Part shown: positions 24,994 through 39,065 of the stretch, piece after piece
How positions within the stretch are numbered: the stretch's first letter is position 1
How the letters are laid out: each line of letters opens with the position of its first letter
NCBI GenBank assembly: GCA_017608625.1
Contig: JAFCFN010000008.1
Location: forward strand, 1-39,065
Direction of reading: 5' to 3'
Length of the DNA: 39,065 nt
From: Candidatus Woesearchaeota archaeon
GTDB taxonomy: Archaea > Nanobdellota > Nanobdellia > Woesearchaeales > JAFCFN01
The notes under the pieces: generated by a model
The model's input: the letters and a program-made list of their open reading frames with translations, nothing else
Database searches by the model: none
What the model was told of the DNA's origin: nothing
Position numbers and translations under genes: made by a program

Positions 24994-25539
24994 TTATTTG
25001 GATTTAGCTCTCTTTAGGTTTTTAATTAAGAGATCTACTGCTTCATCAACTTCTTTTTCTGATTTTGTACCTGTACAGACAATTTTTCCATTAGAAAATA
25101 ACAAGAATGTTGCTTTTGCTTTTGCTAATTTATATACTAAACCAGGAAACTGCTCTGGTTCATATTCTGTATTGTGTAGCTTCATTGCTAGTTTATTAAG
25201 ATTTAGTGACATTCCAATATTTCCTGCTGCAACCATGTTTTGTATATTGATCTTTGGTTCAATTGTTATCTTGATATTTATTTTTTTGAGTGCATCTTTT
25301 ATTTTATTAATAGCTTCTCTTACTTTTTTAATAGATCTAGCACCCGTTACAACTATTTTTCCAGAGCTAAAAATTAAAGCAGAAGTTTTTGGTTCTTTTA
25401 TTCTTAATACTAAACCAGGAAACTGCTCTGGATTATATTCTGTGTTACTTAGTGTTGCTGCCATTTTCTCCAAAGGAACATCATGTTCTAGAGAAGAGGA
25501 TACAACAATATTTACAATTTTAACTGTTTTCTCAACCAT
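24994..25539 (-). CDS. tbp: TATA-binding protein
   Basis: Two TBP repeats 'NTEYNPEQFPGLVLRIKEPKTSALIFSSGKIVVTGARS' and 'NTEYEPEQFPGLVYKLAKAKATFLLFSNGKIVCTGTKS'. Start assigned to MVEKTVKIV (25539), preceded by SD GGGGGTG. Confidence 0.93.
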   Translation of the reverse strand: MVEKTVKIVNIVVSSSLEHDVPLEKMAATLSNTEYNPEQFPGLVLRIKEPKTSALIFSSGKIVVTGARSIKKVREAINKIKDALKKINIKITIEPKINIQNMVAAGNIGMSLNLNKLAMKLHNTEYEPEQFPGLVYKLAKAKATFLLFSNGKIVCTGTKSEKEVDEAVDLLIKNLKRAKSK

Positions 25540-25622
25540 ACAAACACCCCCAATTGCTTTATAAATGTGCTCAAAAATCACAGATTTTTGGCACCCTAAA
25601 AATGCTATTGCATTTCTATGGC

Positions 25623-33600: not shown

Positions 33601-33741
33601 ATGACCAGAATTAATATCGAATTAGATAATGAATTACACAAAAAAGCTAAGATTTCTGCTCTTTTACAAAATAAAACTTTGATTCAATATATACATGAAG
33701 CTCTTGAAGAGAAGGTGAGGAGAGATGAGAGGAAGAAGTAA
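33601..33741 (+). CDS. ribbon-helix-helix (CopG/Arc-like) regulator, 46 aa
   Basis: Not in ORF track; MTRINIELDNELHKKAKISALLQNKTLIQYIHEALEEKVRRDERKK; SD GAGGCGT upstream; overlaps the next CDS by 17 nt. Confidence 0.8.
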   Translation: MTRINIELDNELHKKAKISALLQNKTLIQYIHEALEEKVRRDERKK

Positions 33742-35230
33742 GATAAAGATCTGGAACTGGAAGTTGTTTCTTTTTGTAATTATTTTTGGTTTACTAGCGC
33801 AGATTTCATTAGCTACATGTCCTCCTCCAAAAGAGCCAACAGGAACATCGGCAATGGTAATAGTGAACTACTGTGAAATTGATACTGGCACTATGTGTGT
33901 CTACGCATCTCCCGGTGTAGTTCCAGATGAAATTAAAGATAACCCAGCATATGAGGGCCCATACTACTCTGTTTCATGCACTCAGGGTAGTTCAACAGGT
34001 ACCTTGAGATCGGTATACGACACTTGCTTCAGTGATTGTTGCTCTGGCTCTTGCACAGGAAGCAATAATAAGTGTTATTCTGATGGCGCTACTTATTCAA
34101 ACCAATATTGTGATGCAGGTACTTGGCGGGATCAAGATTATAACACAATTGCATGCAATGCTTTGGGTGGTGTTTATGAACCTACAATAAGTAAATGTTG
34201 TAGTAATATTGACAGGGAAGGCTATGTAACCTCGAATGGAAAATGGCTTTGTGCAAAAAATAATGCTGGTGAATGGGAGTGGATGAATGCATCTTCTTTT
34301 ACTTCTGAGAAAATAATAAGAATAGGAAATCTTTATGATATTATTCCTGTATTTAATTATACAGTTCAGGATTATGTTTGGGCAGCATGCGATGCCGATG
34401 GAAATTCACAATTTGTTGGACAAAAATATAATGATCAACAAGTATTCAAAGTAAATAGCACTACTGTAAATGATACAATCTGTTTTAAACATAAAGGAGT
34501 TTCAACAATAGGTGCTTGTGATTGGGAAATTGCAGATGATTCTACAGGCGGTATTCAGTTTACTCAAGGTAAAGCAGCTCCATTTATGAATTTAAGTAAT
34601 TGGGATACATCTAACTGGGGACAGGAATCAATTTCTAGCTATTCATCAAATAATAAAAAAATTATTTACAATTTTGATGCAGGGGATATGCAACAAGGCA
34701 TTTTTACACTTAGTTTTTCTACAAATAACCCTGATATTAGAAATTGGGCTGACTACAATTATTTGGAGTTTGATATTAAGTATAATTCTTCTTTCCCTTT
34801 GAGATTAGAAATCAAAAATAATGGCATATCCATTTTTAATGACCTTATTAAAGGATATTCAGTTACTATTTTCAATTCTACAAAATGGAATCATATAAGA
34901 ATCCCTCTTAGTGGAACAAGAGACAATATTAATTTTCTCAATTTTTATGTAAATAGTAATGAAATAGATCCAGGTTCTTATGAAGTTTATATAAAAAATA
35001 TGTATTTAACTGGACCAGATACAAAGTATTGTGGAGGAGATCGTGGTTGGATAAGTGATTTGGATGGTGATAAAATGACATGCGAAGCTGCAGGTTTTGG
35101 CTGGACAGGTACAGCTTGTTGTGGTGATGATGGACAGGAAACAATAGCAGGACCTAGTCATTATGGAGGAGGATGCTATAAAGGACAATTTGTTAGGAAT
35201 AATAATTTAATTTGGCTTGTAATACCTTAA
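33725..35230 (+). CDS. secreted Cys-rich protein with CBM-like beta-sandwich region
   Basis: N-terminal signal/TM 'WKLFLFVIIFGLLAQISLATC'; 'CCSGSC','KCCSN','ACCGDDGQE' Cys motifs; 'NYLEFDIKYNSSFPLRLEIKNNG...WNHIRIPLSG...YEVYIKNMYL' CBM-like. Confidence 0.6.
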   Translation: MRGRSKIKIWNWKLFLFVIIFGLLAQISLATCPPPKEPTGTSAMVIVNYCEIDTGTMCVYASPGVVPDEIKDNPAYEGPYYSVSCTQGSSTGTLRSVYDTCFSDCCSGSCTGSNNKCYSDGATYSNQYCDAGTWRDQDYNTIACNALGGVYEPTISKCCSNIDREGYVTSNGKWLCAKNNAGEWEWMNASSFTSEKIIRIGNLYDIIPVFNYTVQDYVWAACDADGNSQFVGQKYNDQQVFKVNSTTVNDTICFKHKGVSTIGACDWEIADDSTGGIQFTQGKAAPFMNLSNWDTSNWGQESISSYSSNNKKIIYNFDAGDMQQGIFTLSFSTNNPDIRNWADYNYLEFDIKYNSSFPLRLEIKNNGISIFNDLIKGYSVTIFNSTKWNHIRIPLSGTRDNINFLNFYVNSNEIDPGSYEVYIKNMYLTGPDTKYCGGDRGWISDLDGDKMTCEAAGFGWTGTACCGDDGQETIAGPSHYGGGCYKGQFVRNNNLIWLVIP

Positions 35231-35231
35231 A

Positions 35232-37694
35232 ATGGTTAAATTTAATTTTATAAAATTTAGAAAAATAGCAATCAAGATTAAATTAATTTCATTTATACTT
35301 TTATTCTTAGTATTTGTACCATATGTTTGTGCTCAAACATGGTGTTTGGATCACTCCAAAACCTGCCAAGCTTATTTTAGCATGGATCAAAATGAAGATG
35401 AACTTAGTGATTACTTGAGCGAGTTTTGCGATAATGAATATCGAGACACTGACGCATTCCAAGACTGTATAGCATGGAGACAAGATAATTATGGAGAAGA
35501 TAAGGATGAAGCCGAAGATAAATGCATTCAAAGATGCAGAGACAATGAAGATGATGCTGTTGAAGTTTTTTGTGAAGAATATTATATCCCTAATTATGGA
35601 CAGCCAAATTATTATGGAGAGTTATGTGTTGATCAGGAACAAGGCTATTTTGAAGATCACTGTTTAGATGTGATTGATGATGCTGAGAAAGAAGAGGTTA
35701 GAGATGAATATTGTGCAGACGCTTTTGTTGGAAGTGACGAGTATTATGATTGTATTTCTGATTGTGAATCTTGGCTTGATGAATATCTTGTAGAAGAAGA
35801 TATTGGAGAAGGAGAATGTGTAGGAATAATTGATGGATATGAAATATGTGCTGATGATCCTGAAGGTTCTTGTGCTTCGAAGTGTCAATATGATTGCGAA
35901 AATAGTTATGCTTATGTGACACAGAGTTATTGTTACAGTTATTATGAAGATAATTTTTATGATCCTGACAAATGTCTTTCATATTTAAAAGATAAATATA
36001 ATCTCATGTGTTTGCAAGATACTTGCTATGATAGGGATGGAGATGGATATTTTGTTTATTGGTGTGGGGGTAGTGATTGTAATGATAATAACGCCCTAAT
36101 TAATCCTGACACTGTGTGGTATCTTGATAATGACGGAGATGGATATTATTCAGGCACTACTTATACAGGTTGCTCTCCTCCTTATGGCAATTATGTGTTG
36201 GAAAATCAAATAGTAGATTTAACTGTTATTGACTGTAAAGATTATAATCCAAATATTAACCCAGGAGCTACAGAAATCTATAATAATATTGATGATGATT
36301 GTAATGGAATCATAGATGATGTTGATACAGATGGTGATGGCGTAGCAGATAATATTGATAATGATGATGATAATGACGGTATAGAAGATTCATTTGATAA
36401 TTGCCCATTTGATGCAGGAACTGATGCAGATCCCTTAAGTGACAATCCAAATTGTTATGGTTGTCCAGAATCAAAATGCTATAATTTAGTATATTATAAT
36501 CAAAAATTTCATACATGTAATATCACTCCAGATAATTTTGGTTTAGATACAAATAATGCAGAGATTAATGATGTTTGTGAAGTTGTTGGTAGCTGGTATT
36601 GTGATAAAGATAATAAATGGAAACCCACAAACAATCAACAGTATGATGGAAACATAGATAATTCTCCAACTGGGGATTTTGGATGCTGTCCAGTAAATAA
36701 GTGTTGGAATAGCAACAGTAATAGTTGTGATCAGAGTGTAACTCTTCCAGCAGAGGATCATGATTTAGTTCCTTTTATGCTTCCAGAAGCAAGCACTGCT
36801 GAAAACTATGCATGTGTAGATGGAGAATGGATAAATTTAGTAAGAAAATGTAAGCCAGATTGGACTGATTGTACTAAATATTGTTTGCCAAATCAGTGCT
36901 ATAATGGAAGTACGTGTGTAGATCATAATTATTATAGTAAAGATCATTACTGTCAAAATGGAAATTGGACAACAAGAACAAAGTTTATTGCATTACAATT
37001 ATTGAATTATACAGAAACAAATTCACCAGATAATTATACATTATATTGTGATAATTATACAAATGTTTTGAATTATTTTGGAGAATATGATATAGATTAC
37101 CTTGAAAATGTTAACAATATCTGTGGCTTAAGAACAAAAGATGGAAATGTTATACTTGGATTTTCTTTGAATACTGAGATTAATAAACAAGGAGAGACTA
37201 TTCTTGAGAGGTTACCTGACATTAAGGAGGTTTCTTTTTGTAATAAGGCTCTTAGCAGTACCAGTACAGACTTTACTCAATGCAACAACAAAAAAGCTTA
37301 CTATAATCCGTTAATTAACTCTTTGATTTATAGTAAAAAAGAAATAAATCTTAAACCAGGATTTTTTACTAATTTATGGCAGAGCATTATTAATTTCCTT
37401 GTTGGATCAACTCAAACTTCAGATTATAGATTTGTTGAGAACTCAACTGCATTTAATAAATTGTATATTGATAAGTTGGATAATAAAGAAATAAGAGGAA
37501 TAATAGAGGAAATTGGACCAAATAAATATATGGCAATTGAATACATAAACATTGATACAGATGTAAGTCAATTTAAGCCACATCCTTCTGATCTTGAATA
37601 TCATACAACTAACAATCAACAATACATTATATCAAAAAATGAAGCAGATTTCAAATACTGGCAATATCTGACAACAAAAATAAAATTAAAATGA
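35232..37694 (+). CDS. secreted acidic Cys-rich protein with MopE-type metal-binding motifs and TSP3-like repeats
   Basis: Signal peptide 'ISFILLFLVFVPYVCAQ'; 'DRDGDGYF...SDCNDNNALINP', 'DNDGDGYY...DCKDYNPNINPGATEIYNNIDDDCNGIIDD', 'DTDGDGVADNIDNDDDNDGIEDSFDNCP'. Confidence 0.65.
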   Translation: MVKFNFIKFRKIAIKIKLISFILLFLVFVPYVCAQTWCLDHSKTCQAYFSMDQNEDELSDYLSEFCDNEYRDTDAFQDCIAWRQDNYGEDKDEAEDKCIQRCRDNEDDAVEVFCEEYYIPNYGQPNYYGELCVDQEQGYFEDHCLDVIDDAEKEEVRDEYCADAFVGSDEYYDCISDCESWLDEYLVEEDIGEGECVGIIDGYEICADDPEGSCASKCQYDCENSYAYVTQSYCYSYYEDNFYDPDKCLSYLKDKYNLMCLQDTCYDRDGDGYFVYWCGGSDCNDNNALINPDTVWYLDNDGDGYYSGTTYTGCSPPYGNYVLENQIVDLTVIDCKDYNPNINPGATEIYNNIDDDCNGIIDDVDTDGDGVADNIDNDDDNDGIEDSFDNCPFDAGTDADPLSDNPNCYGCPESKCYNLVYYNQKFHTCNITPDNFGLDTNNAEINDVCEVVGSWYCDKDNKWKPTNNQQYDGNIDNSPTGDFGCCPVNKCWNSNSNSCDQSVTLPAEDHDLVPFMLPEASTAENYACVDGEWINLVRKCKPDWTDCTKYCLPNQCYNGSTCVDHNYYSKDHYCQNGNWTTRTKFIALQLLNYTETNSPDNYTLYCDNYTNVLNYFGEYDIDYLENVNNICGLRTKDGNVILGFSLNTEINKQGETILERLPDIKEVSFCNKALSSTSTDFTQCNNKKAYYNPLINSLIYSKKEINLKPGFFTNLWQSIINFLVGSTQTSDYRFVENSTAFNKLYIDKLDNKEIRGIIEEIGPNKYMAIEYINIDTDVSQFKPHPSDLEYHTTNNQQYIISKNEADFKYWQYLTTKIKLK

Positions 37695-38722
37695 AGAGAA
37701 AAAAAGCCCAAATAACATTGTTTATAATAATTGGATTAGTTATAGTAGGAGCAGTTGCATTTCTCTATTATTTTATAACAACACCCAGAATAGAAAAAAA
37801 AGAACTTGATACAACAGCAATAGAAGAATATGTTACAAGCTGTCTTGATAAGACAGCAAAACAAGCTTTGATTAAGTTAGGAGAGCAAGGCGGATATTTG
37901 TTTGTTCAGGATATGCCAAAATCAAAAAGAATTGGTGAAATAGAAATAGCATATTTGATAACTGCACCAAGATTAATATCAACTGATGAATGGCAGATTT
38001 ATGATTATTTGGGAAGCAATCCTTTTCCATCTGATTGGAAGTATCCATGGGAGAATTTTCCTTACAAAAATGGAGAAGAGGTTTATACAGGATATTTTGG
38101 AAATGATAATGTGCCTGGTTTAGAGTCAGGAGAAATTTCATTTAAAATGCAACTTAAGAAATTTATAGAAAAAAATGTAACAAGTTGCTTGGATTTATCC
38201 ATTTTTAAAGAAAAGGGGTTTAATATAAAAGTAACTAGCCCGCCTCAAATAGACATAGTGATCACAAACGAGAATGTGATATTTACTTTAAATCTTGGGC
38301 TAAATGTCAAAAAATCTGGATCAAAGAAAAAGATAAATAACTTTGTTGCAGTAGAAGATGTAAAATTAAGAAATCTTTATCAGTTTTTGAAAACCTTAAT
38401 CTTTAATGATATAACAGATATTAGTTTTGATATAACAAAACAAGTTCCTATATATACAATAACAAAATCAGAGCAAGCTAATGATGATTTAATAATTATT
38501 ACAGACAGTTCTTCTATAGTGAATGGTAAGCCTTATTTATTCCAATTTATGAGAGAGAATAGAAAACCAGCATTACACAACAATACTATTTCCTGCGATA
38601 ATCTTGAATTAAATGTAAATTATTTTGATCCTGATGAAGATAATCTAGCATTTTGTAATGTACAAGATAACAGTTTAGTAATATCTGATGGATCTAAACA
38701 AGATTCAAAACCATTAGAATGA
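37691..38722 (+). CDS. pilin-like/class III signal-type surface protein
   Basis: 'MKRKKAQITLFIIIGLVIVGAVAFLYYF' N-terminus (basic, A|QITLFIIIG hydrophobic), 343 aa, translationally coupled to neighbours. Confidence 0.55.
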   Translation: MKRKKAQITLFIIIGLVIVGAVAFLYYFITTPRIEKKELDTTAIEEYVTSCLDKTAKQALIKLGEQGGYLFVQDMPKSKRIGEIEIAYLITAPRLISTDEWQIYDYLGSNPFPSDWKYPWENFPYKNGEEVYTGYFGNDNVPGLESGEISFKMQLKKFIEKNVTSCLDLSIFKEKGFNIKVTSPPQIDIVITNENVIFTLNLGLNVKKSGSKKKINNFVAVEDVKLRNLYQFLKTLIFNDITDISFDITKQVPIYTITKSEQANDDLIIITDSSSIVNGKPYLFQFMRENRKPALHNNTISCDNLELNVNYFDPDEDNLAFCNVQDNSLVISDGSKQDSKPLE

Positions 38723-39065
38723 AAACAAAAATAATAATTTTAATTAGTGCATTAATTTTGCTAGCAATCCCTCTGCTCAAAGCAGGTTCTTCAGATTGTG
38801 TAAGCTCAAAGCAGGTTCTTCAGATTGTGTAACAGATCCGAATAATTATGATGAATTCTGTATGCAGGATTCTTGTTCTGAAGAAGTAATTTGTACTGTT
38901 CCTTATTGTTGTTGTGATGATTCTCCTCAAAATTATTCTCCAAAAGCTCCACAAGAATGTTCACAAACTGGGGGGATATTTATCTCTGCTTGGAGTGAAG
39001 CTTATGAGCAGAAGTATGGTGGAGATAAAGAACACTGTCCAGAATTTTGTGGGGAATTAAATTGT
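38719..39065 (+). pseudogene. secreted Cys-rich protein interrupted by a 29-bp tandem duplication (runs off window)
   Basis: ATG 38719; as given reads MKTKIIILISALILLAIPLLKAGSSDCVSSKQVLQIV*. Removing one 29-bp copy gives an open frame to the window end: ...LLKAGSSDCVTDPNNYDEFCMQDSCSEEVICTVPYCCCDDSPQNYS.... Confidence 0.8.
38775..38832 (+). repeat. perfect 29-bp tandem duplication GCTCAAAGCAGGTTCTTCAGATTGTGTAA x2
   Basis: Copies 38775-38803 and 38804-38832, identical and adjacent. Confidence 0.98.

Follow-up and report, generated by a model that had tools for sequence, protein, structure and literature searches.

A 29-bp tandem duplication in a secreted Cys-rich protein gene of a woesearchaeote is very probably an assembly artefact

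The duplicated locus and its conserved gene cluster

The window, i.e. the whole stretch of DNA analysed here, is the entire contig C7 with a length of 39,065 bp, and its end is thus also the contig end. The contig is part of a draft genome of 14 contigs and 645,741 bp that is 98.7% complete. The small genome, the presence of genes for both subunits of DNA polymerase II (polymerase D) and a cluster of pilin-like genes suggest a DPANN-type archaeon. The features discussed below are compiled in Table 1.

The last gene of the window starts with an ATG at 38719 that overlaps the stop codon of the upstream gene in the form ATGA. The frame from this start codon reads MKTKIIILISALILLAIPLLKAGSSDCVSSKQVLQIV and is then terminated by a TAA at 38830-38832, i.e. 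at codon 38. Tandem Repeats Finder reported a repeat at 38775-38832 with a period of 29, 2.0 copies, a 100% match and zero indels, the 3′ end of which is 233 bp away from the contig end. Past the second copy, the Cys-rich frame is open to the end of the window and continues on contig C1, where 1,983 codons follow without a further stop or frameshift. The initial annotation had described a perfect head-to-tail duplication, a stop at codon 38 and a Cys-rich frame open to the window end; all three observations were reproduced, and the last one could be extended across C1. No rescue start was found for the shifted frame, as its earliest start codon, a TTG at 38796, is located downstream of the signal peptide. 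No other perfect tandem repeat in the window has a unit of 12 bp or more. After mononucleotide shuffling of its sequence (n = 20), perfect tandem units did not exceed 11 bp, which rules out a chance origin. A search of viral contigs with the 29-mer did not yield a match.

The part of the giant protein that is encoded on C1 contains Cys-rich segments, TSP3 repeats (PF18884), a hydrophobic segment and a basic tail, and no Pfam family was detected in the first 900 residues of the protein. Matches to it are present in 134 of the 292 genomes of the same order, this genome included. In G011, a relative with a single-contig genome, the cluster has the order secreted Cys-rich proteins, pilin-like protein, giant Cys-rich protein and then further pilin-like proteins. 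The conserved cluster, which encodes secreted Cys-rich proteins together with pilin-like proteins that have a KKAQ N-terminus, was noted at 33725-39065 of the window and at L003:1-11924.

The comparison of orthologous loci, which the initial annotation had proposed, comprised 29 loci, 18 of which cover the N-terminus. All 18 complete N-termini run from the signal peptide through the Cys-rich region in a single frame, and none of them contains a tandem repeat. The orthologue from the same genus was not recovered; its cluster is distributed over two contigs, C42 and C72, the latter of which starts with a run of Ns. The matches across the order, the similar cluster of G011 and the 18 repeat-free N-termini in one frame thus identify the giant gene as a conserved component of a cluster for surface structures or secretion, with a single unit as its normal state. 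Apart from the duplication, the gene is probably intact and encodes a conserved, secreted Cys-rich surface protein within a pilin-like cluster. A literature search for Cys-rich surface proteins of Woesearchaeota gave no match.

Table 1. Features of the window (contig C7) and further perfect tandem duplications in the same assembly
Feature	Position	Strand	Remarks
Two more secreted Cys-rich genes of the conserved cluster	33725..37694 (33725-35230 and 35232-37694)	+	
Upstream pilin-like gene	37691..38722	+	N-terminus KKAQITLF; translational overlap with the following gene; conserved position in G011
Beginning of the assembled gene for the secreted Cys-rich surface protein	38719..38832	+	ATG, signal peptide, premature TAA at codon 38; direct reading
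29-bp unit, copy 1	38775..38803	+	Tandem Repeats Finder
29-bp unit, copy 2	38804..38832	+	Tandem Repeats Finder; probably spurious; junction microhomology 0 bp
Cys-rich continuation in the shifted frame	38833..39065	+	Extended without decay by the 1,983 codons of C1:1-5952
Exact overlap of 114 bp with C1:1-114	38952..39065	.	k-mer overlap at contig break
53-bp duplication	C10:306-415 (L072:306-415)		RfcS frame shifted after ~codon 25
73-bp duplication	C4:30597-30742 (L071:10597-10742)		Mre11-type nuclease frame shifted
89-bp duplication	C10:82239-82417 (L135:2574-2752)		GCD14-type tRNA methyltransferase C-terminus frame shifted
27-bp duplication	C3:953-1006 (L067:953-1006)		Intergenic

Further duplications in core genes

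About 411 kb of the 646 kb, sampled as stretches, were scanned for perfect tandem duplications. Five perfect two-copy duplications with units of at least 20 bp were identified (27, 29, 53, 73 and 89 bp). Four of the five are located inside genes, and every one of these breaks the reading frame, while the fifth is intergenic. For comparison, we scanned 400 kb of three near-complete relatives as well as 143 kb of orthologous loci taken from numerous draft genomes, and perfect tandem duplications with units of 20 bp or more were absent from both sets. Two smaller ones (14 and 15 bp, likewise perfect) were observed in the assembly at L066:4218-4245 and L072:11636-11666, and they may be further instances of the artefact.

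The interrupted genes include that for the small subunit of replication factor C (RfcS), i.e. of the clamp loader, which was identified with 460 bits versus a curated cut-off of 303. A second copy of RfcS was not found in the genome; the other match has an identity of 27%, which fits the large subunit. Archaea that lack the small subunit of the clamp loader should not be viable. Because the loss of the sole gene for this subunit should be lethal, it is very unlikely that the RfcS duplication is real, and the 29-bp duplication of the window has the same form. The Mre11 fragment scores below the whole-protein cut-offs of the Mre11 models and above the cut-off for the metallophosphatase domain, and in its relatives the frame is open over about 400 codons. 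In G001, a genome of the same genus, direct alignment revealed that RfcS and Mre11 are uninterrupted, with a single copy at each site, and the tRNA methyltransferase is likewise open (276 codons).

Contig ends and the proposed assembly error

The terminal 114 bp of the window are identical to C1:1-114, and contig termini of this genome are linked in nine cases by overlaps of exactly 114 bp. Such overlaps are the signature of a k-mer assembler that halted at a branch; end overlaps of k-mer size have been reported for IDBA-UD and metaSPAdes assemblies (Chen et al. 2020, PMC7111523). At the other end of the window, positions 1-114 likewise form a k-mer overlap, in this case with the beginning of C10 in the opposite orientation, and therefore C10, C7, C1 and C11 can be ordered. 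As a cause of the contig break, we considered a mixture of strains with one and two copies of the unit. This mixture predicts graph breaks at 38690-38803 or 38804-38917, and it was rejected because these nodes do not match the actual break at 38952-39065.

For four of the five duplications the nearest contig end is at most 1 kb away (binomial p ~1e-4), and three of the five have a border no more than about 310 bp from such an end (p ~2e-4, same test); the Mre11 duplication is not close to a present contig end. The unit is shorter than the 114-bp overlap in all five cases. The microhomologies at the junctions are 0, 0, 0, 1 and 4 bp, which is close to random joining and offers little seed for slippage. 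The assembly thus has several characteristics of false duplication by unmerged contig overlaps, i.e. two perfect adjacent copies, units shorter than the k-mer overlap, blindness to gene content, an excess over the relatives and an enrichment at contig ends.

Because similar repeats disrupt indispensable genes in the same assembly and most of them are close to contig ends, the 29-bp duplication is very probably an assembly artefact and not a genetic switch. Two assembled pieces would have shared a short terminal overlap below the 114-bp k-mer overlap, and they would have been joined without merging it, so that the sequence of the overlap would be written twice. Joins of flanks without merging of a short overlap are a published class of error, and scaffold joins despite overlapping flanks were described for IDBA-UD and CLC assemblies (Chen et al. 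2020, PMC7111523). The local errors in metagenome-assembled genomes (MAGs) described in that study likewise duplicate the sequence at the join and involve k-mer-sized overlaps at scaffold ends, but they have Ns between the copies, whereas the repeat on C7 has none. Since the published error leaves Ns and none are present here, the pieces would have to have been joined by gap filling or by direct abutting. We infer this step, and the reads would be expected to show one copy. Points against the artefact are the lack of Ns, the position of the Mre11 duplication away from present contig ends and the possibility that a broken Mre11 could in principle be compatible with a genuine instability of the genome.

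The same cause would make no fewer than three core genes (RfcS, Mre11 and a tRNA methyltransferase) appear broken in an annotation. The analysis removes a false lead, an apparent switch in a secreted archaeal protein, and provides a reusable test: before a perfect tandem duplication that shifts the frame in a MAG is interpreted as a switch, the same assembly can be scanned for similar duplications in essential genes and close to contig ends.

Alternative explanations

Of the three readings that the initial annotation had offered, the artefact is favoured, the fresh mutation is less favoured and the reversible ON/OFF switch is not supported. It is unlikely that the population carries a real and recent duplication, which would be a simple frameshift mutation that inactivates the surface gene and would perhaps reflect a genome-wide tendency to tandem duplication. 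The exact copies and the undecayed downstream frame would fit a recent event, and several further duplications are present in the genome. However, the same process would have destroyed RfcS, which lacks a second copy, and the clustering at contig ends and the little or absent microhomology for the seeding of slippage also argue against it.

It is very improbable that the surface protein undergoes reversible phase variation in which one 29-bp copy is alternately gained and lost, and the locus should not be filed as phase-variable. It is true that perfect adjacent copies can contract by slippage and that the target is a surface protein. Yet the initial annotation's proposal of slipped-strand variation is opposed by the duplications of the same kind in the housekeeping genes for RfcS, Mre11 and the tRNA methyltransferase, by the clustering at contig ends, by the position of the gene in a conserved cluster and by a contig break that is not where a two-state mixture would place it. 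A contingency locus would be recognized by a same-site repeat of varying copy number in relatives, but the 18 orthologous N-termini are intact and repeat-free. Simple-repeat contingency loci are multi-copy tracts of short units. Such loci (reviewed in PMC11868660) likewise have a repeat in the coding sequence for a surface protein, whereas the site on C7 has two copies of a 29-bp unit that is found in no relative. A precedent is offered by pneumococcal capsule genes, in which tandem duplications control phase variation (Waite et al. 2001, 2003, cited in PMC4022640). There, a tandem duplication in a coding region likewise inactivates a surface-related gene, but switching was observed in culture, whereas the present case is known from an assembled sequence and housekeeping genes have the same lesion. 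Very little weight is also given to the combination of a real duplication, a mixture of cells with one and two copies, an on/off giant Cys-rich surface protein and a DPANN-type lineage that is unusually prone to duplication.

A fixed pseudogene in decay, for which the broken frame as assembled would speak, is hardly conceivable, as the remaining 1,983 codons on C1 contain no other stop or frameshift and the relatives are intact, i.e. neither the same fixed stop in relatives nor the downstream decay that the initial annotation had associated with an ordinary pseudogene was found.

Apart from the tandem pair, the window contains a 25-bp exact direct repeat at 25134 and 25407, i.e. 273 bp apart, among the overlapping open frames at 24994-25581.
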